IMG/VR virus record: IMGVR_UViG_3300028394_000159
Location: 1-38,547 of that record
Strand: one strand, 5' to 3'
DNA: 38,547 nt
From: a virus
Shown here: positions 2,618 through 28,792 of the stretch, piece by piece
How positions within the stretch are numbered: position 1 is the first letter of the stretch
How the letters are laid out: every line of letters begins with the position of its first letter
The notes under the pieces: model-generated
What the model saw: only the letters and a program-made list of their open reading frames with translations
Database searches by the model: none
What the model was told of the DNA's origin: nothing
Position numbers and translations under genes: made by a program

Positions 2618-3043
2618 ATGACCCATGTAGAGATAGATTACATTTCAGAAGTAAACGGATGCACTCCTAAAATATCTGTGGGCACGAGATTCGAAAAATT
2701 CTCTCATGTACAAGAAGTCCAAACAGGGTCGGGCAAAATAATATGTGATTTAAAATTCAAACCATTTGATGCCTTGGTGGTTCAATTTTCAGGAAAGAGT
2801 TGGGACGATCCTTTACCTACATGGTTAAATATGACAAACATAAAAATGGATAACATCTACCTGGACAGTATCCTGTTTTTAGGAAAACAATATCCTGACT
2901 ACGATAATATTGATTTTGATCATCGATACAGTCCACTTTATTATTGCCCAGGCACGAGATTTAATCTCAATGGTGTGTATGAGTTAGAGATTTATTTACC
3001 CATATGGCATTTTACAACCAAATCGAAAAATCCCAATGACTAA
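2618..3043 (+). CDS. small beta-rich protein, cassette family A, copy 1
   Basis: Encodes 141 residues of unknown function. It is clearly paralogous to the product of 3839-4255: both contain KISVGTRF near residue 20, a GSGKI stretch, PFD, GKQYPDY, and NGVYEL followed by PIWHF at the C-terminus. Alternating hydrophobic residues suggest a beta-sandwich. No signal peptide or catalytic motif is seen. The gene overlaps the downstream hydroxylase gene by eight bases, so the two proteins are made together, and the pair is duplicated. It may be a partner, carrier or substrate of the hydroxylase; this is inference. Confidence 0.75.
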   Translation: MTHVEIDYISEVNGCTPKISVGTRFEKFSHVQEVQTGSGKIICDLKFKPFDALVVQFSGKSWDDPLPTWLNMTNIKMDNIYLDSILFLGKQYPDYDNIDFDHRYSPLYYCPGTRFNLNGVYELEIYLPIWHFTTKSKNPND

Positions 3044-3731
3044 CAAATTATTAAATGATCTCAGCAGAGAAAATTGCTTGCAGTTGGATTCAATACTGTC
3101 ATCTGGGATGCCGTGGTTAAAATTGGATCTCAAAGTGCCAGAGTTTCCTTCCCAAGTATTGGATGATGCCATCGCTGCAAGCAGTGGGTGGCATGATCAG
3201 TGGTGTGACAATCCAATATACTCTAGTTATCACAACTGGGACGGAAAAGTGCTTTTTGGTCCAACCAATTGGAATCAGTGGATGGATATATTCACAGCCT
3301 CACCGCATAAAGATGAAGATGGGTTGAGTGAAAAATACAGGCATGAGATAGAGTTTGGATGGCGGATCGATCTTGATCATCCAGTAAGAAAATGGATTAA
3401 TTCATTTTTGGATGATGCTGCTATTAATTTTGTGAGTTATTATGTATTAGGACCCGGCGGACATCTACCGCCACACTATGATCCATGTGCCGGCAAAAAA
3501 AAATGTTTCAACAAAATATATGCTGCTGTTACTTGGCCTGCTGATTGTGAGTTTGGGTTTTTAGACTGGGGAAATATGCCAATACAGCAAGGTGACGTTT
3601 TTCTGATCAGTGTTTATCAATACCCCCATTGGGTGATAAATCATGGAGATAAACATCGCATAGTGCTAAACATCGCCTGCAATCTCACTCACATCCAAGA
3701 CCTAATTAAACGCAGTTTCCTGCGACGTTAA
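3036..3731 (+). CDS. 2-oxoglutarate/Fe(II) hydroxylase, Asp/Asn beta-hydroxylase type, copy 1
   Basis: Encodes 231 residues that read as a cupin-like 2-oxoglutarate-dependent dioxygenase. The iron-binding triad is visible: H147-x-D149 in PPHYDPC and H198 in YPHWVIN. R208 in HRIVLNI is the expected 2-oxoglutarate-binding arginine. The GPGGHLPPHYD context matches aspartyl/asparaginyl beta-hydroxylases. The substrate cannot be told; protein, peptide or lipid are all possible. It is translationally coupled to the family A gene upstream and followed by a strong terminator. A paralogue lies at 4252-4950. Confidence 0.85.
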   Translation: MTNKLLNDLSRENCLQLDSILSSGMPWLKLDLKVPEFPSQVLDDAIAASSGWHDQWCDNPIYSSYHNWDGKVLFGPTNWNQWMDIFTASPHKDEDGLSEKYRHEIEFGWRIDLDHPVRKWINSFLDDAAINFVSYYVLGPGGHLPPHYDPCAGKKKCFNKIYAAVTWPADCEFGFLDWGNMPIQQGDVFLISVYQYPHWVINHGDKHRIVLNIACNLTHIQDLIKRSFLRR

Positions 3732-3739
3732 ATCAATTC

Positions 3740-3772
3740 AAAAAAAACCCTGCCTGGCAGGGTTTTTTATTT
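3740..3772 (+). terminator. intrinsic terminator after hydroxylase copy 1
   Basis: A palindrome CCCTGCCTGGCAGGG flanked by an A-run and followed by TTTTTTATTTT, eight bases after the hydroxylase stop. The flanking A-run makes it potentially bidirectional. It separates the two hydroxylase pairs, so the second pair probably has its own promoter in the 3773-3838 gap, where the AT-rich stretch at 3805-3825 is the only candidate. Confidence 0.85.
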
Positions 3773-3838
3773 TATAGTAGTCGAATTCTTGTGTCTCTAC
3801 TAGATTTTAATATATAATTGATAATCATCAGCCTTACT

Positions 3839-4255
3839 ATGAATTTAATAACCATATTGTATTCTTCACTCATAACTGAGTGCTTACCAAAAATATCCGT
3901 GGGCACACGATTTGACGGATTTGTCTACACCGAATTATGTAAAGCAGGGTCGGGCAAAATAGAGTGTGAAATAAATCTTAGACCATTTGATAATTTGCTA
4001 ATAAAGTTTTTTGACAAAGTGTGGTCCCCACAAGGAGATACTCGATTTGATATCACAGCAATTCTAATAGATGGTATAACATTAGATCATATTATATTCA
4101 AAGGCAAGCAATATCCAGACTACGGTCAGGCTGAATTTAACAAACAATCAAGTCAAGTTTTCTGGCAGCCGGGCACAATATTCCACCTCAATGGTGTGTA
4201 TGAGCTAGAACTATCACAGCCAATTTGGCATTTCAGGGTAAAAAACGCACAATGA
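3839..4255 (+). CDS. small beta-rich protein, cassette family A, copy 2
   Basis: Encodes 138 residues from the ATG at 3839. That start gives the same distance to the KISVGTRF motif (18 residues) as in copy 1. It shares PFD, GKQYPDY, the LNGVYELEL run and PIWHF with copy 1. The stop overlaps the start of hydroxylase copy 2 (ATGA), reproducing the gene order of the first pair. Function unknown; conservation of the pair suggests the two products act together. Confidence 0.75.
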   Translation: MNLITILYSSLITECLPKISVGTRFDGFVYTELCKAGSGKIECEINLRPFDNLLIKFFDKVWSPQGDTRFDITAILIDGITLDHIIFKGKQYPDYGQAEFNKQSSQVFWQPGTIFHLNGVYELELSQPIWHFRVKNAQ

Positions 4256-4950
4256 CTTTTCCTAATTTAATAAGTTGCGCCCGCGATCAAAATCAGCTAG
4301 AGCTAGATTCAATTTTGGGATGCGGATTGCCATGGTTGCGGTTGGATTTGACTTGCCCTCAATTTTCTCAGCAGGTGCTGGATGCCGCGGTTGCACAAAG
4401 TACCGACTGGCGCAGTCAATGGAATGTTGCTGCGCCCGGATATCAAGTGAGAAACTGGAATGGTCAAATATTGTTTGGTCCTGAACAAAATCTCAAATGG
4501 CATGAGATTATAAAAAACGGTCCAGTATTGCACGACGAAGATGCAACATGCAAAAAGCACAGACAAGATCTGGCATTTGGATGGCGGATCGATCTTGACC
4601 ATCCAGTACGACAGTGGGTTAACACATTCCTGGACGATAGAGACATCCATATTGTAAATTACTATGTGCTGCCACCTGGTGGATATCTTCATCCACACTA
4701 TGATCCATGTGCCGGCAACAAATGGCTTAACAAAATATACGTGGCAATAAAATGGCCCCACGGTGCAGAACTTGGATTTTTAAATTGGGGCAACGTGCCA
4801 ATACAAGAAACAGATGTGTTGTTGATAAACAACTATCTATATCCCCATTGGGCCATAAATGCCGGTACAGAAAATAGAATAGTGTTGGACATTGGGTGCA
4901 ATCTTGACAGCATCCAGCCGCTGATCAAGCAGAGCTTTTTGAAGCGGTAA
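4252..4950 (+). CDS. 2-oxoglutarate/Fe(II) hydroxylase, Asp/Asn beta-hydroxylase type, copy 2
   Basis: Encodes 232 residues, aligned along its whole length with the product of 3036-3731. The iron ligands are H149 and D151 (HPHYDPC) and H199 (YPHWAIN), and R209 (NRIVLDI) should bind 2-oxoglutarate. I chose the ATG at 4252, overlapping the upstream stop, because it matches the N-terminus of copy 1; the longer frame begins inside the upstream gene. Divergence is greatest in residues 50-110, so the two enzymes may have different substrates. The radical SAM gene starts 24 bases downstream. Confidence 0.85.
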   Translation: MTFPNLISCARDQNQLELDSILGCGLPWLRLDLTCPQFSQQVLDAAVAQSTDWRSQWNVAAPGYQVRNWNGQILFGPEQNLKWHEIIKNGPVLHDEDATCKKHRQDLAFGWRIDLDHPVRQWVNTFLDDRDIHIVNYYVLPPGGYLHPHYDPCAGNKWLNKIYVAIKWPHGAELGFLNWGNVPIQETDVLLINNYLYPHWAINAGTENRIVLDIGCNLDSIQPLIKQSFLKR

Positions 4951-4974
4951 ATATTAAAAACTAATAAAATCTGT

Positions 4975-6546
4975 ATGGACATTGTGTTGGCCATCGCTCC
5001 TCGTATATCTGATGATTTTGGATACACTCCTGCTGGCCCTGCGTTGCTGAAAGGGTCGTTGGCCTCGGCAGGGTATTCATCCAAGATAATAGATTTCAAT
5101 GCCGAGCTTGAAGAGATCTACAAAGATGATCAGACCCTACTGACATCCATCAGCAATTACTTTATGAACTACGCATTGTACAATCAAACAGTATTTGAAC
5201 TGGTGGACAAATGGATAACCAAATGGGCATATGATATCTTGGACCATGCTCCTACATGGGTGGGCATCAGCGTATTCAGCTACAACAGCCAACGTGCCAC
5301 TAGATTGTTGGCCATACGATTGAAAACCATCAACCCTGATATAAAAATAGTAGTAGGCGGCGCAGGTATAGCCACTGACTTCACTTTCTGCGAGACTTTG
5401 CACAGGGATCACATCATTGACGCTTACATCAGAGGCGAAGGAGAACTCAGTCTGATAGAGTTGCTACGAGGAAATCTTTGTTATCCGGGCATCAATGGCA
5501 TTCCAATGCAGCAGATTGATGACATAAACAGTCTGGCATATCCTGTGTATGATGATTACGAACTGTCAGATTATACCAATCGCAAAGGATTGGTAGCCTT
5601 GCCTATCACTGGCAGCAGAGGTTGTGTAAGAAGTTGTACATTTTGTGACATTGCCAGCATGTGGCCCAAGTACAGATATAGAGATGGAAAGAACATTGCA
5701 GAAGAAATAAAACATCAAGTAGAGCGGCACGGAGCTCGTGCTTTTCGATTCACTGACAGTCTGATCAATGGCAGTCTCAAAGCCTTCAAGGACATGATCA
5801 AGGAACTGGCCGAGTATCGTATGAGCCTGCCTGAACAGCGTAGATTCATATGGGATAGTCATTTTATCGTGCGCGGTCCCCAAGAATTGAAACCAGAGAT
5901 ATTTGATCTCATGAAAGAATCAGGTGCGGGCACCATGTTGATGGGTGTGGAAAGTGGCAGTCAGACTGTGAGAGACCACATGAAAAAAGGATTCACACAA
6001 GATCAACTGGATTATTGCATGCAACAGTTTGCTCGTACAGGGATCAAAGCAAGATTCTTGATGATAGTGGGCTATCCCACTGAGACTGAAGAAGATTTCC
6101 AGCAGTCCTTGGACATGTTCACCAAATACAAGCCATACTGTGATCAAGGCATCATTGAGGAAGTTAATCTTGGACTCACGCTGAATCTGCTGCCCAATAC
6201 TCCCTTGACTGCTGATCTAGAAAAATACAACATTGTTCAAGAGATCAAACACATCAACAATTGGGTATGCTTGAACAATCCATCCATGGACTACAAAGAA
6301 CGTCTTCGCAGGCGCATATATCTACAGCAGCACATAGAGAATCTTGGATACCGAGTATTTGAATCAAAAAATTATACCAATCAATTGTTCCTGGCCTGGA
6401 ACGAAGTGATGACTTTGAAAAGCCAAGCACATGTGATTGAAGATTTTAAATATGATCGAGACCAAGGGGGATTGGTTGAAAAATCTTTGCCTGCTGTAAA
6501 ACATATCAAAATACATGAACATAAAAATCACACTGTTGGCGCATGA
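4975..6546 (+). CDS. cobalamin-binding-domain radical SAM enzyme
   Basis: Encodes 523 residues. Residues 1-165 resemble the Rossmann-like B12-binding domain of the BchE/MiaB-like class (GISVFSYN, IVVGGAG, then IRGEGELSL, the GEGE signature). Residues 210-430 form the radical SAM barrel with the cluster motif C217-x3-C221-x2-C224. The C-terminal 90 residues are charged and helical. Such enzymes catalyse methylations, ring rearrangements or other radical chemistry on unreactive carbons; the substrate here is unknown. It needs a 4Fe-4S cluster, which the phage IscU/IscA pair could help supply. It sits between hydroxylase copy 2 and a divergent family A gene, pointing to one modification pathway. 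Confidence 0.85.
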   Translation: MDIVLAIAPRISDDFGYTPAGPALLKGSLASAGYSSKIIDFNAELEEIYKDDQTLLTSISNYFMNYALYNQTVFELVDKWITKWAYDILDHAPTWVGISVFSYNSQRATRLLAIRLKTINPDIKIVVGGAGIATDFTFCETLHRDHIIDAYIRGEGELSLIELLRGNLCYPGINGIPMQQIDDINSLAYPVYDDYELSDYTNRKGLVALPITGSRGCVRSCTFCDIASMWPKYRYRDGKNIAEEIKHQVERHGARAFRFTDSLINGSLKAFKDMIKELAEYRMSLPEQRRFIWDSHFIVRGPQELKPEIFDLMKESGAGTMLMGVESGSQTVRDHMKKGFTQDQLDYCMQQFARTGIKARFLMIVGYPTETEEDFQQSLDMFTKYKPYCDQGIIEEVNLGLTLNLLPNTPLTADLEKYNIVQEIKHINNWVCLNNPSMDYKERLRRRIYLQQHIENLGYRVFESKNYTNQLFLAWNEVMTLKSQAHVIEDFKYDRDQGGLVEKSLPAVKHIKIHEHKNHTVGA

Positions 6547-7129
6547 TCAACCTGCCATACGCATATTGGTCAACGATATGGTTTATTTTGATTCAGTGCT
6601 GCATGATCCATTGACCGAGATAGAATTTGATGCTGTGCTGCAAGACAGCAATCAACTGGTCATTGAACATTTTGGCAAGAAAAACGAACATACCATATGC
6701 AACGAAGACGGCAAGATCATCTCAGATCGAGCTGCTGAATTGGTCAGCATCATGATTGGCAAATATGAGATACCCAAGAATATCCTGTTCAAGCAACCAT
6801 TTGCAGTAAAATGGCCACAAAACCTCTTAGAGGACGCCGAGAGAAAAAACCAAACCCTGCCCAGCTGTCTTTACAACAATCTTTATTTTGGATTTAATGG
6901 CACATATATATTTGATTTTGCCAAAGATCTGCGCAAGGACTATTACTACTATTTCTGGCAGATGGAACGTGATGCCAATCACAATCTCCAAATGGTAGAT
7001 GAATCATCCAATACCGGATATTTTGAAGCGTACGGAATGAAGTTAGAAATCAACAAAGCATTCAGCTTGACCATCCATGACCTCAAATACATTATTGAGA
7101 ATCAGAGTTTGCCAGACACGCTACACTGA
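6515..7129 (+). CDS. divergent cassette family A protein, 204 aa
   Basis: Encodes 204 residues and overlaps the radical SAM gene by 32 bases. It follows the same pattern as the two shorter family A proteins: an N-terminal strand, L(V/L)I(E/K)-x-F-GK near residue 55, a strand, ILF near residue 95, and FNGTYIF followed by an aromatic YYYYFWQM near residue 150. It carries about 60 extra residues, including a C-terminal extension (residues 155-204). The relationship is a by-eye alignment and distant. No catalytic motif is visible. Its place beside the radical SAM enzyme mirrors that of the other family A proteins beside their hydroxylases. Confidence 0.7.
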   Translation: MNIKITLLAHDQPAIRILVNDMVYFDSVLHDPLTEIEFDAVLQDSNQLVIEHFGKKNEHTICNEDGKIISDRAAELVSIMIGKYEIPKNILFKQPFAVKWPQNLLEDAERKNQTLPSCLYNNLYFGFNGTYIFDFAKDLRKDYYYYFWQMERDANHNLQMVDESSNTGYFEAYGMKLEINKAFSLTIHDLKYIIENQSLPDTLH

Positions 7130-7472: not shown

Positions 7473-8372
7473 TTAGAAGTTGTATTCAACGCCCACGCCG
7501 TATTGGGTAACGTCTGTGGTTGTGTCGATAAAGCTGTAGCGAGCATTGAAAGTCAGTGCCTTGTTCATGGCATAAGCCACACCCACACCGCGACCAGTTT
7601 TGCCGCCGTCAGTTTCGCCGTAGTTGGCCAACACACTCAGTTGGCCGGTGATTGCTTGGCTTACACCAATGCTCTTGCCAGTGCTGCTTACATTGCTTGC
7701 CACGTCGCTGCTGTATAGACCAAACACTGTGGTACCGGTACTGGCCAAGGTGTATTTCGCACCAAAGACATTGCTGCTGCTGGAAATACCATCATCGTAA
7801 CGAGCAAATGTAGCTGCAAATGGTCCTTGTGTGTAGTCAATGCTGCCTGCTGTGGCGTTGGCTGTGCCAGCAGTTTCACTGTTGGCCAATTGCCAGTTAG
7901 CGGTGAATCCCATAACAGGTGCTGTGCTCACAAACAATGCGTTCTGCACACGCGAACCTTGTGCGTTATGTACAGTGCCCACAATGGTGCCATAAGCGTT
8001 GCCAAACGAATCAAAGTTATCCAGCGCACGAGTCACTGAATGTTTGTCACGGCCCATGCCCACCGAGCCCAGGTCATTGCTGAGATCGAAGCGAGCTGTA
8101 CGATCGCCCAGTGTGGTAGCACTTGGTGCATCCACAGCCACGCCAGTTTCTAAAACGGCAGTTGCAGTGATACCATTGCCCACGTCGCCGGTGGCTTTGA
8201 ATCCCAAACGAGTGGAATCATTGGTCAAGCGAGTCAGCGCACTAGCAGTGCCTAGGGTGTATGATTCTTCATACACACGTATTTTACCATACACACTCAC
8301 TTGAGGTGCAGATTGTGCCAAGGCGGCTGAGGTGGCCAATGCTAGGGCCAATACTGTTACTAATTTCTTCAT
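7473..8372 (-). CDS. outer-membrane porin, Gram-negative (betaproteobacterial type)
   Basis: Encodes 299 residues. Residues 1-20 are a Sec signal peptide (MKK, a hydrophobic core, then ALAQ). The mature part starts SAPQVSVYGKIRV, the usual first strand of betaproteobacterial trimeric porins, and shows alternating strands and Gly/Ala/Ser/Thr-rich turns. The chain ends in VGVEYNF with the terminal Phe that the BAM complex recognises. At about 280 mature residues it is shorter than typical 330-380-residue porins, so some loops may be reduced. The gene has its own consensus promoter, AAGGAG ribosome-binding site and terminator. It could change host permeability or mask a receptor during infection (inference). 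Confidence 0.88.
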   Translation of the reverse strand: MKKLVTVLALALATSAALAQSAPQVSVYGKIRVYEESYTLGTASALTRLTNDSTRLGFKATGDVGNGITATAVLETGVAVDAPSATTLGDRTARFDLSNDLGSVGMGRDKHSVTRALDNFDSFGNAYGTIVGTVHNAQGSRVQNALFVSTAPVMGFTANWQLANSETAGTANATAGSIDYTQGPFAATFARYDDGISSSSNVFGAKYTLASTGTTVFGLYSSDVASNVSSTGKSIGVSQAITGQLSVLANYGETDGGKTGRGVGVAYAMNKALTFNARYSFIDTTTDVTQYGVGVEYNF

Positions 8373-8495: not shown

Positions 8496-10589
8496 TTATT
8501 GCACCGGAACTACCGCAGGTGACGGCGTGATTGGTGGATCAGCCGGTATGTTGTTGGCCGTGAATAATCCGGATGCTTGATATGAGGTTTGATTACGTGC
8601 TTCTCTCATGGCACCTATGATGGCCTGGCCACCAACGATGGTAGTATCAGCAATGCTTTCCAAAAACTCGGCTGCCTGACATGTTTCAGTCATTGCAGCA
8701 TATGTGGGTAAGTTTTGCACAAAGGCCATCACACTGGGTTGTTCGCCTGACAGCAGACTGAAGTAATTGATGCCAGCACGAGTCTGTAATGCTCTCTCTG
8801 AACTGAGTGAAGTAGAAATAGCATTCCATGCTGTGTTCATAGCAGTGGTCTGTGTGGGCCAGGCTGCAACCACGCCATCCAATGCAGCATTGGCTAATGG
8901 TATCAATGTTTGTAATGCCAAGTCGCCGCCGTAGTAGGGAAATGCATTGGCATACACACCCGCACCTGCACCTGCTGGAACAGTCACACTCACTGCTGGA
9001 TTACCATAGGTGCCATTACACACATTTTCGATACGTTGATATAGATCCAATAATGTATTGTAACTGGCTGATCCCGAGATAGCAGACAATGCTGTGCTGG
9101 CCGTGTTGAGATAGGTGTCGAGTCCATTGTAGTTGATGGCCGTGCCCAACACATCGCAAGTGGTGATTGTGCCGTTGGGCCCAGTGCCAGTGGCTATGTT
9201 GGTATCAAAAAATGTGGTAACCGATGCCGGTACCGGAGTGGTCAGCGCAGTAATTGCCGGTAGGCCCGACATGGTGCTCTGGCCGCCCAGTGTGGTTGGC
9301 AACCAATAGCTGGTGTTGGTAATATCTGTGCCCACAGGCACATCTTGCTGTGCTCGATAGAATTCAGGTACGGGTGTGCCGTTGGCCACTAGATCATTGG
9401 TTAGATATGGCTCTGCAGGATCCCATGGTTGTTCTATGTAACCTTTAACGCTTTCAGCCAATGATGGTAGATCCGTGCCTGCAATGTTGGGTATCTGTTG
9501 GAACGCCACCTGTATGGCTTTGTTGGCCACAGCATCGCCTGGCGGTATGATCTTGCCCAATTCATCGCATCCGGATGGCGCAGGCAGATAAGCATTCACT
9601 ATGGGCTGTACTGCCGAATTCACACTGCTGTTGGGATTGAATATTGGAACCGGCCCATAAGGACTGGGCGTCTGTAGTGTGAGATAACTCTGCGGAAATA
9701 CTTTTATAGGATCCAATAGGTCGGCCAAGGTATCGATGTCAGGAGTAGTGACGTCTAGTATGCTCAATATCTGAGCCAGGTCATCACCAATCACCATGTT
9801 CATGGCATAGTATGCTTGCAACTGAAGCTGATCAAATTCATTTGTGGATAATCCGGCAGGATTGAGCACACCAACTTGATTGTTATTCACAAGATCCTGT
9901 ATGTTTTGCGCTGTCAATCCTGCGGCAGTGAGCTGATTCTTTATGGCCGGTACTGTGGCATTTGATATGCCGGCCACACGGCTGATCTGTTGTAACAGTC
10001 CTGCAGGTGTGCCGTACAATTCTAGATTTCCTAGATCGGTCAGTTGTCCTTGATTGGCCAGATCGGTGCCAAACGGTCCCAGATCAGAATTTACTGTGGA
10101 GATGTCTGCGGTGGTCAGCGCATCCATGCTGGAAAAGCTAGGACCCAAGTAAGTGGGCGCATTGACTGCGGTGTTGATGTAATCGTTGGTGGTAACGATG
10201 AATCCTTCTACTGTCATAAACCCTTGAGCAAACCGTCCGCTGTCACCATAGCCCAGATAGTAGTTGGCAGTTTGCGAAACAAGTCCAGTCAGGCCTGCCG
10301 GATTAGCCACTGGTGTCAATGTGTTGTATGCTGGTGGTATGCTGTTGCCCAATGCTGGACAATTACCAACCAACCCACGTATGGTCTCCAATGAAGTTAA
10401 TGTGCTAGACGAACACCATGTTGTGCCTGCTGCATTGTTGATGGCACCATTGATTGCTGCGATCGTAGTGAAGGCGTTGTATTGAGAAATAGCAGTGGCC
10501 AACGCTGTTGGTAATGTCTTGAGACCTTGATTGTTCAACAATGCTGCACTAGCTGTGAGTTGCAGTGGTGTTAATATACTGCGTGCCAT
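8496..10589 (-). CDS. large putative virion structural protein, 697 aa
   Basis: Encodes 697 residues with low charge and many Thr, Ala, Asn, Leu, Pro and Gly residues, typical of phage tail or baseplate-associated proteins. No enzymatic motif or signal peptide is visible. The start follows the stop of the PAAR gene by one base (TGATATG), so it is co-translated with the tail-spike tip protein. A function near the tail tip or baseplate is plausible from context. Proteins of similar size and composition occur in marine T4-like phages as virion components, but I did not identify a named homologue. Confidence 0.7.
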   Translation of the reverse strand: MARSILTPLQLTASAALLNNQGLKTLPTALATAISQYNAFTTIAAINGAINNAAGTTWCSSSTLTSLETIRGLVGNCPALGNSIPPAYNTLTPVANPAGLTGLVSQTANYYLGYGDSGRFAQGFMTVEGFIVTTNDYINTAVNAPTYLGPSFSSMDALTTADISTVNSDLGPFGTDLANQGQLTDLGNLELYGTPAGLLQQISRVAGISNATVPAIKNQLTAAGLTAQNIQDLVNNNQVGVLNPAGLSTNEFDQLQLQAYYAMNMVIGDDLAQILSILDVTTPDIDTLADLLDPIKVFPQSYLTLQTPSPYGPVPIFNPNSSVNSAVQPIVNAYLPAPSGCDELGKIIPPGDAVANKAIQVAFQQIPNIAGTDLPSLAESVKGYIEQPWDPAEPYLTNDLVANGTPVPEFYRAQQDVPVGTDITNTSYWLPTTLGGQSTMSGLPAITALTTPVPASVTTFFDTNIATGTGPNGTITTCDVLGTAINYNGLDTYLNTASTALSAISGSASYNTLLDLYQRIENVCNGTYGNPAVSVTVPAGAGAGVYANAFPYYGGDLALQTLIPLANAALDGVVAAWPTQTTAMNTAWNAISTSLSSERALQTRAGINYFSLLSGEQPSVMAFVQNLPTYAAMTETCQAAEFLESIADTTIVGGQAIIGAMREARNQTSYQASGLFTANNIPADPPITPSPAVVPVQ

Positions 10590-17717: not shown

Positions 17718-18434
17718 CTAGATGTACTTGGTGTAATATTCTTCTACTTTTCGCCACCACAGATCACGATAACGGTCGTATTCTGTGCCCTCTAGCACAA
17801 ATTCTTGATATTGTGGCTTTGAGATGAGATTATGACCCGCATCAAGGTCGGGCTTGACACACATCAAGATCACACCTTTGCGTATTTTTGTGCCATGTAA
17901 TTCATTGTGTGCTTCTGCGTAGGCGCATAACTGTACAAAGTAATCATCAATCCATTCACGTTTCTTGGGCTTGTTGGTCTGCTTGTAATCCAGGATTGAT
18001 TCTTCATTTAGATGTATGCCAGCACCATCAGTTGTGCCTGCATAGATTTTAGGAAAATACAGCGGCACTTCAATACCCCAGAATTCATTCACATTCTTCA
18101 ATCCCTCTGCAATCACAGTCTTGGCCATCTCGTGGCTGCTCCAACTAAAAGGATTGGTTCCACGTTCTTTGATCGCACCTTGTTTCACATACTCTTCAAG
18201 ATAGGTATGCATCCTGGTGCCACGGTTGGCTGCTTCTGTGGTTATCTGTTGTGCTTTTTCCGCACCCACTGCACGTCGCCAATTGTGCAATGCTGCTTTG
18301 CTAGCTTCGCTCTTGGTCCGGTCCAGGATCGTGGTCACAGATGGTAGATTATTGCCATCAGGTGTGGCATAAAATCGTTTGCCCTCTATAGTGACTCTGG
18401 GAATGGGTTGATAGTTAAAGCGAGGGTTGTACAT
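17718..18434 (-). CDS. PD-(D/E)XK exonuclease, RecB-like
   Basis: Encodes 238 residues. The nuclease core is visible as AGTTDGAG, then ILDYKQ (D-x-K), and the QxxxY motif in QLCAYAEAH, the signature of RecB-family nucleases. The N-terminal half (LPSVTTILDRTK, NRGTRMHTYLEEY) matches the RecB-like phage exonucleases, where GTxxH precedes the core. Only two cysteines are present, so it should not carry an Fe-S cluster as Cas4 and AddB do. It overlaps the radical SAM gene by 20 bases and is the last gene of the iscU operon. Likely roles are degrading host DNA or processing DNA ends in recombination. Confidence 0.82.
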   Translation of the reverse strand: MYNPRFNYQPIPRVTIEGKRFYATPDGNNLPSVTTILDRTKSEASKAALHNWRRAVGAEKAQQITTEAANRGTRMHTYLEEYVKQGAIKERGTNPFSWSSHEMAKTVIAEGLKNVNEFWGIEVPLYFPKIYAGTTDGAGIHLNEESILDYKQTNKPKKREWIDDYFVQLCAYAEAHNELHGTKIRKGVILMCVKPDLDAGHNLISKPQYQEFVLEGTEYDRYRDLWWRKVEEYYTKYI

Positions 18435-19455
18435 GAGTTTTTAGATTATCTAAGATTTGTGATTTGCAATTTCGACTACAGTTGATATGCCATCTGTCTT
18501 GTTTGAGACTGTTCACTAGTTCGTGTTTAAAAAGTTTATGCTTTAGTATGTCCAATAATGAATATTTGGTCAAGTCTTGATTCTCAAATCCATCAGTCAT
18601 GTCATGAAGTTGTTTGGTTCCTGGCCAGTTCAGTTTGGTATCAAAATGCATCATACAACACGGAATCACATGATTCAAGTAGTTGATATACAATCTTCCT
18701 TGAGACTGCCATGGGCAAATCCTATCAGGATTATGAGTTGAAATATCTCTTTCTCTTACAAACTTTCTGGCACTATGTATAACTTTTCCTCGTGACTGAT
18801 TTATGGGTTGTTGCAAAAAATGTGATGTCTGTCCATGGATCACAACCGGCCACATTTCGATGCCATTAAAATCTCCTGATCGACAAGGGTCATAATCTAT
18901 TTCGGCAAATCCCAGGTGTTTACTGAGGGCTATTACCTTGTCCAGTTGATGTTCGTTGTGTCTGAATAACAAAAATTTCCAAACAGCATTGCCACCGGCA
19001 TTGATGAAAGATGTAGCATTGTGAATGATCTTGTTGAAGTCTAACCCGACTCTATATAGATGGTTAGTATCTTCTAACCCGTCAATGCTAAAAGTTACTT
19101 TTAGTCTTGCATGATTTTTTTCTGCCAATGATCGCCACCAAGCCGAGGATCGTATACTGCCATTGGTCACAATCTGTATTTCCGGACTTGAAGGTGCTTG
19201 CAAGAAAAAATCAATAATTTTTTCTATCTTGGGATGCATGATTGGATCACCTTTATCGCCTTCCAATCTCACTATCTTTAAATTAATCAACTGATCAAGT
19301 TGAAGATTTGATTGTATTGAATCAACATCCAAATGCCCTAGTGTTAGATCAGGATGTAGATTACCATCTGAATCAAATCTTGGACAATGAGGGCAGCCGG
19401 CATTGCAATAAGTAGATAGCTCTATCAATAACAAAGTGATATCAGCCAGTTCCAT
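18415..19455 (-). CDS. radical SAM/SPASM-like protein
   Basis: Encodes 346 residues. The cluster motif C17-x3-C21-x2-C24 sits in STYCNAGCPHCPRF, followed by GDKGDPIMHP and TNGSIRS, typical barrel motifs. The C-terminal part has further cysteines (IPCCMMHF, then INCSRNCKS), as in SPASM or twitch domains that bind an auxiliary cluster. These enzymes often modify peptides. I chose the ATG at 19455 right after the upstream stop (TGAGATG); an alternative ATG at 19545 would overlap the Fe-S carrier gene by 89 bases. Neither substrate nor precursor peptide is recognised nearby. The gene is AT-richer than its neighbours, a hint of transfer. Confidence 0.82.
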   Translation of the reverse strand: MELADITLLLIELSTYCNAGCPHCPRFDSDGNLHPDLTLGHLDVDSIQSNLQLDQLINLKIVRLEGDKGDPIMHPKIEKIIDFFLQAPSSPEIQIVTNGSIRSSAWWRSLAEKNHARLKVTFSIDGLEDTNHLYRVGLDFNKIIHNATSFINAGGNAVWKFLLFRHNEHQLDKVIALSKHLGFAEIDYDPCRSGDFNGIEMWPVVIHGQTSHFLQQPINQSRGKVIHSARKFVRERDISTHNPDRICPWQSQGRLYINYLNHVIPCCMMHFDTKLNWPGTKQLHDMTDGFENQDLTKYSLLDILKHKLFKHELVNSLKQDRWHINCSRNCKSQILDNLKTHVQPSL

Positions 19456-19456
19456 C

Positions 19457-19783
19457 TCAGACTCTAAAACTTTCTCCACATCCACATCGATCTCTCTCGT
19501 TGGGATTGGAGAATTCAAATCCTTCGTTGAGTCCTTGACGAACATAATCTATAGTGATACCTGAAAGATACACTTCGTGCTTTTTGTCTACTATCACAGA
19601 GAATCCAGCTTGTGCATAGTTGATCACGGTGTCAAGGTCCGATGGGTGTGCATCTATATATTCTAACACATAAGCTAGTCCAGAGCAACCAGTAGTTTTC
19701 ACTGCCAATCGTATGCCTATGCCGCCGCGTTTCTCTAGTAGTCGTCGGATTTTTTTATCGGCTGTTTCAGTTAGGGTTATCAT
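19457..19783 (-). CDS. iscA: A-type iron-sulfur carrier (IscA/ErpA/HesB family)
   Basis: Encodes 108 residues, the normal length of the family. The three cysteines that bind iron or the cluster are C33 (TTGCSGLAY), C100 and C102 (CGCGESF). A-type carriers pass clusters from the scaffold to client enzymes. The ATG at 19783 lies within the end of iscU (17-base overlap), and the next gene is a radical SAM enzyme that needs such a cluster. Longer upstream starts overlap iscU heavily and lack family similarity. Assignment among IscA, ErpA and SufA cannot be made by eye. Confidence 0.9.
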   Translation of the reverse strand: MITLTETADKKIRRLLEKRGGIGIRLAVKTTGCSGLAYVLEYIDAHPSDLDTVINYAQAGFSVIVDKKHEVYLSGITIDYVRQGLNEGFEFSNPNERDRCGCGESFRV

Positions 19784-20153
19784 GACGGCTGCGATAGTCT
19801 GCCACTGCTGCTTTGATAGCATCTTCCGCAAGTATTGAACAATGAATCTTGACCGGAGGCAATGCAAGCTCAGATGCGATTTCTGAATTTTTAATTGCCG
19901 ACGCAGCATCAAGAGTCATGCCCTTGACCATTTCAGTAATTAGCGAACTTGACGCAATCGCCGACCCGCAGCCATACGTTTTGAACCTGGCATCTTGGAT
20001 GATTCCATCCACTACCTTGATCTGCAACTTCATCACGTCGCCGCAGGCGGGTGCGCCAACCATGCCGGTGCCAACAGTATCGTCGCCTTTGTCAAAGCTG
20101 CCCACATTGCGTGGATGTTCGTAGTGATCAATTACTTTTTCTGAGTAAGCCAT
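19767..20153 (-). CDS. iscU: iron-sulfur cluster scaffold IscU
   Basis: Encodes 128 residues, the same length as bacterial IscU. All functional residues are present: C37 and D39 (GAPACGD), C62 (YGCGSA), H104 and C105 (KIHCSI), plus the LPPVK motif (98-102) that HscA binds. It therefore should accept sulfur from host IscS and hand clusters over with host HscA/HscB. AAGGAA precedes the ATG. No IscS, HscA or ferredoxin gene is in the window. It begins a four-gene operon with iscA, radical SAM and nuclease genes. Confidence 0.95.
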   Translation of the reverse strand: MAYSEKVIDHYEHPRNVGSFDKGDDTVGTGMVGAPACGDVMKLQIKVVDGIIQDARFKTYGCGSAIASSSLITEMVKGMTLDAASAIKNSEIASELALPPVKIHCSILAEDAIKAAVADYRSRHDNPN

Positions 20154-26190: not shown

Positions 26191-27474
26191 ATGACCAGCA
26201 GCATCAACCCGCAAAACATCGACGCCAACTACCCTGTTGCCGGCGTGCCCAACAACACTCAAGGATTCCGTGATAACTTCACCAACATCCAGACCAATTT
26301 TACTTACGCCAAAAACGAGATAACTGATCTGGAAAACAAAGCCATCCTCAAAAGTGCATTGACCGGAACTACCTTGGACAACAACATGGCGGATCAATTG
26401 ATCTACTCTGCGCTGATCCGTGACTTTTCCGGCAGCATCGTGCAAAACACAGTGACCTCAGGATCGGTCACACTGGATTATAGTTCTGGGCATTATCAGA
26501 CTGTGAGCACCAGCGGTAGTGTTAGCCTGGGATTTACCAACTTTCCTGCTGCTGGCACTGTGGGTATGATGCGTGTGCAGATCAACATCACCAACACTGC
26601 ATACACCGTGACTTTGCCTGCTGCGGTGACCCTGGGTATCACTGGCATACAAGGTATCAGTTCTAACGTGATCACTTTTGGAGCAATCGGTTATTACGAA
26701 TTTGGATTTGTGACCAGTGATGGTGGTACTACTATTACTGTGTTTGATTTGAATAGACCTTTAAGTTATTACACCAACACCGTTAATGTGGCAGCTACTA
26801 CTTCAAGCACCAGTACCACCACAGGTGCGTTGATTGTTGCCGGCGGTATGGGCATCGCAGGAAACTTGTACGTAGGCGGTGACATATTTGGTAATGTGAC
26901 TGTGACAGATATTTCTCTTGGCAATGTGTCGGCATCCGGATTCGTCAGTGCCACGGGCAATGTCACAGGCGGTAATGTACGCACAGCCGGATTGATCTCG
27001 GCCACTGGCAATATCACAGGTGGCAATATCATTGGTATTGTTGCTGCCGGATCCAATACAATCACCACTACAGGTAATATCAGTGGCGGCAATCTTATTG
27101 GTATTGTTGCTGCCGGATCCAATACAATCACTACTACAGGTAACATCACCGGTGGCAACATATTGACTGGTGGCCTGGTCAGTGCCACAGCCAATGTCAC
27201 TGGTGGTAATATACGAACTGGTGGTCAGGTGAGTGCTACCGGTAATGCGTTGTTTCTAGCCGGTACCGCAGTACCAGTTGGTGGCACAGCAGGTGCTGGC
27301 ATAATGATGTCTAGCACTACCAATCTTGGTGTGTTCTTTGGATCAGGTGCACCGACAATAGCAGCAGCCCAAGGCAGTCTATATCTCAGGACTGATGGTT
27401 CCAGCACCAGCACAAGGTTGTATGTGAATACCACAGGCAGTACCAGTTGGACTGCTGTGACCACTGCTATCTAA
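26191..27474 (+). CDS. tail fibre-like virion structural protein, 427 aa
   Basis: Encodes 427 residues. The N-terminal 60 (SSINPQNIDANYPVAGVPNN, then TQGFRDNFTNIQTNF) match a module I know from structural proteins of T4-like marine phages. Residues 60-200 are beta-rich, and 245-370 are built of short repeats of the form ATGNVTGGN, typical of fibrous beta structures. Two adjacent 22-residue repeats are encoded by the 66-bp DNA repeat at 27031-27162. The C-terminus (LYLRTDGSSTSTRLYVNTTG) resembles a common fibre end domain. One of the few plus-strand structural genes here, with its own late promoter. Confidence 0.8.
   Translation: MTSSINPQNIDANYPVAGVPNNTQGFRDNFTNIQTNFTYAKNEITDLENKAILKSALTGTTLDNNMADQLIYSALIRDFSGSIVQNTVTSGSVTLDYSSGHYQTVSTSGSVSLGFTNFPAAGTVGMMRVQINITNTAYTVTLPAAVTLGITGIQGISSNVITFGAIGYYEFGFVTSDGGTTITVFDLNRPLSYYTNTVNVAATTSSTSTTTGALIVAGGMGIAGNLYVGGDIFGNVTVTDISLGNVSASGFVSATGNVTGGNVRTAGLISATGNITGGNIIGIVAAGSNTITTTGNISGGNLIGIVAAGSNTITTTGNITGGNILTGGLVSATANVTGGNIRTGGQVSATGNALFLAGTAVPVGGTAGAGIMMSSTTNLGVFFGSGAPTIAAAQGSLYLRTDGSSTSTRLYVNTTGSTSWTAVTTAI
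27031..27162 (+). repeat. tandem 66-bp coding repeat, two copies
   Basis: Two adjacent 66-bp units (27031-27096 and 27097-27162) encode IGIVAAGSNTITTTGN followed by (I/V)xGGN, differing at only a few bases. They lie in the repetitive shaft of the fibre gene and look recently duplicated. Confidence 0.85.
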
Positions 27475-28173
27475 TTTTATTAGAGACATATTGTTCCAAA
27501 TTTCTTCACGATCAGGATCATACGGAACCCATTTGTGACTAGAAATACGTTTATATAATTCTTCAGCAAGAGACTGATTTATTTCTATTCCGGCCACTGG
27601 CATGATTGATTCAATCAACCATCGATAATGTAGCAAAGGCTGTGGCTGTATCTCAGTTCCGCGGCAATCTAAATTTTCTGCAAATTTTTCTTGTTCATCG
27701 TTGCTGGTATCAATGTATCTGGCATTTTGTTGTGAAACATATGCTGATATCAATTTCTTTTGTATTTTTTGTCTCTGTAGAGATTGTTCGGTCTGTATGT
27801 AAAAATTGTGATATTTTTTAATCACATCAATCCCACTGCCACTACTGCACCACCATATACCGCTTTCAGTTTTGTAAGTGTTAAAATCATATATTGGATC
27901 AGATTTTACAATATCCACCCACTGGTCATCTTGTATCAGTTTATCAAATCTTTGGTGTTGCGGCCATTGAAAAATCACGGTAGAATATCCAATGTCACAG
28001 GCCAGCAGTTCGTTGATCAAGAACTCACACCCAGCCCCAACTGCACTTATAACAATCACTTCAAGATCGGGTCTGAGTGCTTGTAAGATTTGCGGCCATT
28101 CTGGCCAGATGTGTCCATGAGCATATCCATCACCAAGGCAAAATATCTTAGTAATATTTGTAGTATTTTCCAT
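27379..28173 (-). CDS. conserved unknown protein, GDSL/SGNH-like N-terminus
   Basis: Encodes 264 residues. The first block IFCLGDGYAHGHIWPEWPQI resembles block I of SGNH/GDSL hydrolases, but the catalytic Ser position reads Gly (GDGY). A later AVGAGCEFL could be block II. An esterase activity is therefore doubtful. The last 32 residues are read antisense through the end of the fibre gene, as no stop occurs at the junction. The ATG at 28173 is chosen over a TTG four codons earlier. It overlaps the gene upstream, with which it seems paired. The gene is AT-rich. Confidence 0.65.
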   Translation of the reverse strand: MENTTNITKIFCLGDGYAHGHIWPEWPQILQALRPDLEVIVISAVGAGCEFLINELLACDIGYSTVIFQWPQHQRFDKLIQDDQWVDIVKSDPIYDFNTYKTESGIWWCSSGSGIDVIKKYHNFYIQTEQSLQRQKIQKKLISAYVSQQNARYIDTSNDEQEKFAENLDCRGTEIQPQPLLHYRWLIESIMPVAGIEINQSLAEELYKRISSHKWVPYDPDREEIWNNMSLIKLDSSGHSSPTGTACGIHIQPCAGAGTISPEI

Positions 28174-28792
28174 GTGCCAGTTCAAATTCTGCTTCGTGAT
28201 ATCTTTTTACCAAACTGTTATTCCACAGATTTGAATCATATAAAAAAGAATTTAGACTTTTCCATCGATCCATGTGTGTTTTGATTTCCATTCCGGACAT
28301 TATATCATAAAATTCTGCTGTGGTTTCTACTATGTCGGCGAACTCTAAGTTACAATAATGTGGAATAGCACCGAATGCCTGCAGATAGTTTTTTGCGGTT
28401 TCTCTTTGTTTGTCGACAAGTTCCATGCCAGTTAAGGAGCTGATATGATCTTGCTTAGAAAAATATAAATGCCAAGCACGAAGCCATCGATAAATTTTGC
28501 TCCTGGTAGTTTCTGTTGTGATTAGAATAACTTGGTCGCACATGGACAGATCCATTTCCCCGGGCCAACAATGTGTACCAATAATTAATTCATGATCTTT
28601 TGCGTTTGACAAAAAAATATTAAATTTGTTTTGATCAAAGTTTGTAAAAGTTGATTCTGAATCACCAATCTTTCCATATGAATGACTCAACGAATCGAGC
28701 CCACCATTTTTATGAACAGGCGAAAACTTGTTTTCTAAAATATCACATAATAATCCGCCACCGGCGTAATGTGGAAAACACAATAATTTCAT
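28148..28792 (-). CDS. conserved unknown protein, 214 aa
   Basis: Encodes 214 residues. The start LLCFPHYAGGGLLCDIL has a glycine-rich turn after a first strand, loosely like the phosphosulfate-binding loop of sulfotransferases, and IGTHCWP and VILITTETTRSKIYRW follow as further strands. A sulfotransferase-like P-loop fold is a guess. The start overlaps the helicase stop (ATGA). AT-rich like its downstream neighbour, so both may be a recent insertion behind the replication genes. Confidence 0.65.
   Translation of the reverse strand: MKLLCFPHYAGGGLLCDILENKFSPVHKNGGLDSLSHSYGKIGDSESTFTNFDQNKFNIFLSNAKDHELIIGTHCWPGEMDLSMCDQVILITTETTRSKIYRWLRAWHLYFSKQDHISSLTGMELVDKQRETAKNYLQAFGAIPHYCNLEFADIVETTAEFYDIMSGMEIKTHMDRWKSLNSFLYDSNLWNNSLVKRYHEAEFELAHGKYYKYY

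Follow-up and report, generated by a model that had tools for sequence, protein, structure and literature searches.

Phages carry many radical SAM and 2-oxoglutarate (2OG) oxygenase genes without known targets. In RiPP biosynthesis, diverse tailoring enzymes are brought to one substrate by a small binding domain, the RRE, while the known members of the calcium-dependent carbohydrate-binding families CBM60 and CBM36 are domains of secreted xylanases. In the Campylobacter phages CP220 and CPt10, radical SAM and amidinotransferase modules have been described with no established role, and the number of radical SAM and 2OG oxygenase genes was called highly unusual, with no target given (PMC2853527). 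We also noted, in the Pelagibacter phage Mosig (L056, 57452-67991), a cluster annotated as Asp_Arg_Hydrox, desaturase-like, aminotransferase, nitroreductase, carbamoyltransferase and several radical SAM-like genes, in which no CBM60-like gene was detected. The enzyme classes of the locus reported here are known; its new element is a pairing rule, whereby a small CBM60-like gene is tightly coupled to a tailoring enzyme gene. The open-licence literature searched yielded no description of such enzymes with CBM60-like partners, and within that literature the original prediction, that no described phage system has this composition, holds.

The window (the whole 38.5 kb virus record analysed here) comes from a freshwater-type virus of bacteria that, judged by its genes, is a T4-like phage. 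The six predicted open reading frames of the cassette are present on the plus strand (Table 1), and so are the two tandem small-protein/hydroxylase pairs with overlapping frames. The overlap is 8 nt in pair 1 and, if P0004 starts at ATG 4252, a 4-nt ATGA in pair 2; an alternative in-frame start at TTG 4225 would extend the latter to 31 nt. P0005 and P0006 overlap by 32 nt. The strong terminator-like hairpin sets pair 1 apart from the later cassette genes. No convincing match to Pfam, PHROGs or NCBIfam was obtained for P0001, P0003 or P0006. A late-promoter-like TATAAATA upstream of the cassette was no better than background and was discarded.

Table 1. Features of the cassette at 2618-7129 of the window and its immediate context.
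Feature	Position	Strand	Description	Evidence or relation
P0001	2618..3043	+	small CBM60-like protein of pair 1, 141 aa	46% identical to P0003 across 138 aa
P0001 orthologues				L004, L005, L006 at same site; also G004/G005
P0002	3036..3731	+	2OG/Fe(II) hydroxylase of pair 1, 231 aa	PF05118 E 1.3e-6, above cut-off; 56% identical to P0004 across 221 aa
Terminator-like hairpin	3742..3768	+	12-pair stem then T run	between pair 1 and remainder
P0003	3839..4255	+	small CBM60-like protein of pair 2, 138 aa	AlphaFold2 model and Foldseek
P0004	4252..4950	+	2OG/Fe(II) hydroxylase of pair 2	PF05118 E 4.2e-5, above cut-off
P0005	4975..6546	+	B12-binding-domain radical SAM enzyme, 523 aa	PF04055 E 6e-20, PF02310 E 4e-11
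P0006	6515..7129	+	third small protein, 204 aa, CBM60-like N-terminal half	57% identical to P0015
Porin, Gram-negative type	7473..8372	-	context, outside module	PF13609 E 4.6e-22

The enzyme assignments of the original prediction were borne out. The two window hydroxylases scored 28.8 and 23.9 bits against PF05118 (Asp_Arg_Hydrox; cut-off 22.6), and the iron ligands HxD...H and the 2OG-binding Arg (H158, D160, H208 and R218) are invariant in six hydroxylase homologues. By profile and catalytic residues, P0002 and P0004 are assigned to the PF05118 2OG/Fe(II) enzymes, with hydroxylation as the predicted reaction; a search of PDB sequences with these hydroxylases returned no match. P0005 exceeded the cut-offs of both PF04055 and PF02310 and combines an N-terminal B12-binding domain with the radical SAM motif C217-x3-C221-x2-C224. 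Its best NCBIfam models are methyltransferases, all far under cut-off, and among the named B12 radical SAM families (PhpK, rSAM_ocin_1, HpnJ, BchE) the best score was 110 bits against a cut-off of 600, so that P0005 belongs to none of them. An anti-phage defence system was also considered and found no support in PADLOC: P0005 was the only cassette protein to match any defence model, namely the candidate PDC-M51A (E 5e-11), across its B12/radical SAM part.

Three related contigs (L004, L005 and L006) have a small-protein/hydroxylase pair in the corresponding position, flanked by the ORF at 2308-2568 and the porin gene; L004 and L005 each have one small gene and one hydroxylase, and L006 has one small gene with two hydroxylases. 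The NrdB, glutaredoxin-like and porin genes are collinear with the window, as is NrdA as far as the records reach. Pair 1 is the orthologue of the relatives' pair (small protein 74-85% identical). The pair 2 small protein is only about 46-49% identical to those of pair 1 and the relatives alike, which points to an old paralogue or a separate arrival and not to a fresh duplication. Small-protein and hydroxylase distances gave a Mantel r of 0.94, to which we attached no weight because linked genes have a common history. The cassette had been regarded as an acquired unit from its AT-richness and its strand. The former sign stands (G+C 38-45% versus 45-52% for most of the flanks), whereas the opposite-strand orientation is shared by L004, L005 and L006 and is therefore a lineage trait, not evidence for recent arrival. 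These three contigs, all of them linear records and perhaps fragments, lack both the radical SAM gene and P0006. The neighbouring porin, which has a signal peptide-like start and adjoins the pair in all three relatives (69-91% identity), is possibly a receptor decoy or a surface-remodelling gene. Between it and a PAAR-motif gene lies a 697-aa ORF (8496-10589, minus strand) with no Pfam match and about 34% identity in relatives, possibly a fast-evolving virion protein.

Single-protein scans of viral contigs with P0004, P0005 and P0006 found nothing, and alignments were required. A scan guided with a distant SF3 homologue retrieved L024, a T4-like contig whose radical SAM gene is 74% identical to P0005 and overlaps a downstream P0006 homologue by 32 nt, just as in the window. 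There the pair adjoins UvsW, not the porin, and hence retains its partner at a different genome site. Five more contigs emerged from a second scan at 61-62% identity to P0005, a P0006-like gene standing next in each, which brings the P0005 homologues to six viral contigs (61-74% identity). Scanning genome contigs with the radical SAM pair gave remote enzymes only, so a bacterial donor was not found. Isolate phages yielded no homologue of the small proteins or the window hydroxylases, and a P0022 search of them gave one weak Asp/Asn hydroxylase match. Elsewhere in the window, two overlapping minus-strand ORFs at 27379-28792 (268 and 214 aa, no Pfam match) have similar-looking neighbours in L024 (10605-12102).

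Two long contigs, G004 (137 kb) and G005 (300 kb), carry the hydroxylase and radical SAM modules within about 8 kb of each other. Their pairs are homologous to the small-protein/hydroxylase pairs of the window (profile E 5e-29 and 3e-81), and the G004 hydroxylase scored 24.5 bits against PF05118 (cut-off 22.6). The same neighbourhood contains a third module, in which an amidinotransferase-like gene is overlapped by another small-protein gene. The original proposal to look for the three families together in related phages is thus borne out in these two contigs. The idea of a single cassette did not survive: the modules are separable, the first occurring without the second in L004, L005 and L006 and the second without the first in G007, a linear record that, like those of the relatives, may be a fragment. 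Around the G004 modules, we observed a dense tailoring cluster (L050:1981-9945, L050 being G004 92001-112000) with three CBM60-like proteins and a B12 radical SAM enzyme, a carbamoyltransferase, a HAD-like protein, an amidinotransferase-like enzyme and a hydroxylase. At L050:13575-14393, 3.6 kb from the hydroxylase pair, lies a 272-aa ORF with an apparent signal peptide, a C-terminal Phe and no Pfam match, resembling an outer-membrane protein.

This gene content bears on the possibility that the enzymes make a sugar precursor, for instance a modified nucleotide sugar, or another small molecule, with the CBM60-like proteins holding the sugar intermediate. The G004 modules stand in one gene run with the carbamoyltransferase (PF02543/PF16861), a HAD-type phosphatase-like ORF and the amidinotransferase-like enzyme, and the CP220, Mosig and S-SCSM2R clusters contain amidinotransferase, radical SAM, aminotransferase or glycosyltransferase genes, all of which would suit biosynthesis. 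However, the hydroxylase and radical SAM modules of the window lie side by side with no sugar-nucleotide genes between them, and the isolate-phage clusters examined lack the small proteins. We regard a biosynthetic role as improbable.

The fold of the small proteins was approached through P0003, for which an AlphaFold2 model was built from five homologues (mean pLDDT 66). This model matched 2xhh (E 5e-4) and 2xfd (E 2.8e-3) in Foldseek, CBM60/CBM36 structures that were also its best matches by Z score (8.7 and 8.5, with the next fold at 6.6). It matched two uncharacterised phage proteins in BFVD as well. P0003 is accordingly modelled with a CBM60/CBM36-like fold, with calcium and sugar binding as putative properties; the match could reflect likeness of fold alone. 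P0015, the P0006 homologue, gave an independent weak match to the Pfam CBM60 family PF16841 (E 0.008, 17 bits against a cut-off of 28.2); it was the only small protein to give any match, and none exceeded the cut-off. Searching PDB sequences with every small-protein profile returned no match, and no obvious signal peptide was seen by eye in the small proteins examined. AlphaFold2 on P0006 alone reached a pLDDT of 39, and that model was not used.

The third small protein had been taken for a divergent copy of the first two. Direct comparison of the P0003 (A) and P0006 (B) subfamily profiles was not significant, and the link runs through intermediates instead. In a search of 922 ORFs, profile B found small genes of G007 (1e-6) and G005 (2e-4) and profile A found a G001 gene (0.004) and a G005 gene (0.014). 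All subfamilies likely share one ancestor, a view that falls short of proof given the A-to-B result and given that subfamily C, the amidinotransferase-linked one, is tied to the others by aligned pattern only. Across subfamilies, only N-G and W positions are nearly invariant, and these look structural.

Across five contigs, profile searches identified 12 small genes of the CBM60-like kind. Each is coupled to a tailoring enzyme gene on the same strand, either overlapping it (11/12) or no more than 18 nt away. Nine were reached via or along with their enzymes and are not independent evidence. The remaining three emerged from profiles only, and each lies directly beside a radical SAM gene: a B12 type in G007, a SPASM type in G005 and a twitch type in G001, the last above the curated cut-off of NF033640. 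With 17 of 251 similar-size ORFs lying that close to listed enzymes, the chance of this outcome comes to roughly 3e-4; the value is approximate, since members of the family are counted among the 17 and the list of enzymes was compiled in this analysis. The partners comprise several unrelated classes, namely the PF05118 hydroxylase, two B12 radical SAM types, the SPASM and twitch types and the amidinotransferase-like enzyme. The repeated partners of the original prediction therefore reach more widely than was claimed, and the small gene-enzyme coupling is well supported. These contigs carry 14 radical SAM genes, and for 8 of them no partner was detected; as a class, therefore, the enzymes do not depend on a small partner. 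The window itself has a second, SPASM-like radical SAM gene (18415-19545, minus strand) with no partner detected, which shares a PHROG match with the CBM60-partnered G005 enzyme.

These counts also weigh on whether the genes were merely co-acquired by chance as accessory cargo, the small proteins being unrelated virion or accessory proteins. A G+C content under that of most flanks and the differing copy number and content among relatives would be expected of cargo. Yet each partner type persists across diverged phages and in differing genomic locations, and the blind profile matches fall beside enzymes; with the 12/12 association already disfavouring chance, we consider it highly improbable.

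A dedicated modification role, as originally proposed, is supported. We tentatively favour a model, at slightly under even probability, in which CBM60-like proteins serve as recognition subunits, one per tailoring enzyme, and direct hydroxylation, methylation or further reactions to a glycan or to a molecule that bears one; the adaptor role and the substrate are what we infer. The locus encodes three two-gene tailoring modules, in each of which a small cytoplasmic CBM60/CBM36-like protein is coupled in translation to one modifying enzyme, which it would bind and dock on a target common to the modules. The CBM60-like fold suggests that this target is a glycan, or a glycan-bearing phage or envelope molecule. 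Pairs 1 and 2 would hydroxylate it by 2OG/Fe(II) chemistry, and the B12 radical SAM enzyme would methylate it at an unactivated carbon. The benefit may be virion protection or remodelling of the infected cell's surface. An envelope target is attractive on circumstantial grounds, with a porin beside the pair in four contigs and the signal-peptide-like 272-aa protein near the G004 pair. L006, with one small gene for two hydroxylases, counts against dedication to one enzyme. Elsewhere on the minus strand of the window (19457-20153), and also in the L004 and L005 contigs, are genes for an IscU/NifU-type scaffold (PF01592) and an A-type carrier (PF01521), which could supply Fe-S clusters.

Alternatively, the small CBM60-like protein could itself be the substrate of its partner enzyme and, once decorated, act as a sugar-binding protein within the cell or on virions. 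This would account for one-to-one coupling with chemically unrelated enzymes, for the invariant KQYPDY and PIWHF motifs in subfamily A of close relatives and for a small protein conserved in these relatives at least as well as its enzyme. Against it, the single small gene of L006 serves two hydroxylases, although a doubly modified substrate would fit too, and the near-invariant columns across subfamilies are confined to the structural-looking N-G and W. Sequence does not separate this live alternative from the recognition-subunit model; we rate it as unlikely.

Taken with its relatives, the locus points to a modular strategy, so far undescribed, by which viruses direct chemical modifications to a target. 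Extended to several phage lineages, the recognition-subunit model becomes a scheme of interchangeable CBM60-like subunits, one per enzyme, directing many modifications to one target, which we put forward as possible but at somewhat less than even probability. By marking which enzymes belong to one scheme, the small protein would help to uncover further ones and to capture the target they share. Should the partner prove to be a sugar-binding adaptor, phages may modify glycans or glycosylated virion or envelope molecules during infection, which would bear on receptor blocking, superinfection and virion stability.

Compared with PF05118 hydroxylases, a family that includes AspH, LpxO and amino-acid hydroxylases, the window enzymes are alike in the core 2OG/Fe(II) domain with its HxD...H and Arg, but carry an N-terminal region of about 120 residues beyond the Pfam match. 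P0005 shares domain order and motifs with the B12 radical SAM methyltransferases (PhpK, the RiPP maturation C-methyltransferase and HpnJ/BchE-like enzymes). The locus and CP220/CPt10 both represent phage-borne tailoring clusters, the CP220 one with several radical SAM genes and an amidinotransferase, but the CBM60-like partner detected with window-type enzymes was not detected in CP220. CP220 gp085, upstream of the amidinotransferase, was checked as a possible small partner and rejected, as was a weak S-SCSM2R match to the small proteins, because it contains two stops and is out of frame with the annotated gene. With the RRE, the small proteins share a functional analogy and no claimed membership, being of unrelated fold and having no precursor peptide found with them. 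With the CBM60/CBM36 calcium-dependent modules (2XFD, 2XHH and PF16841), they share a predicted fold and, for the P0006 homologue, a weak Pfam match; unlike those xylanase domains, the phage proteins stand alone, have no evident signal peptide and are coupled to tailoring enzymes.
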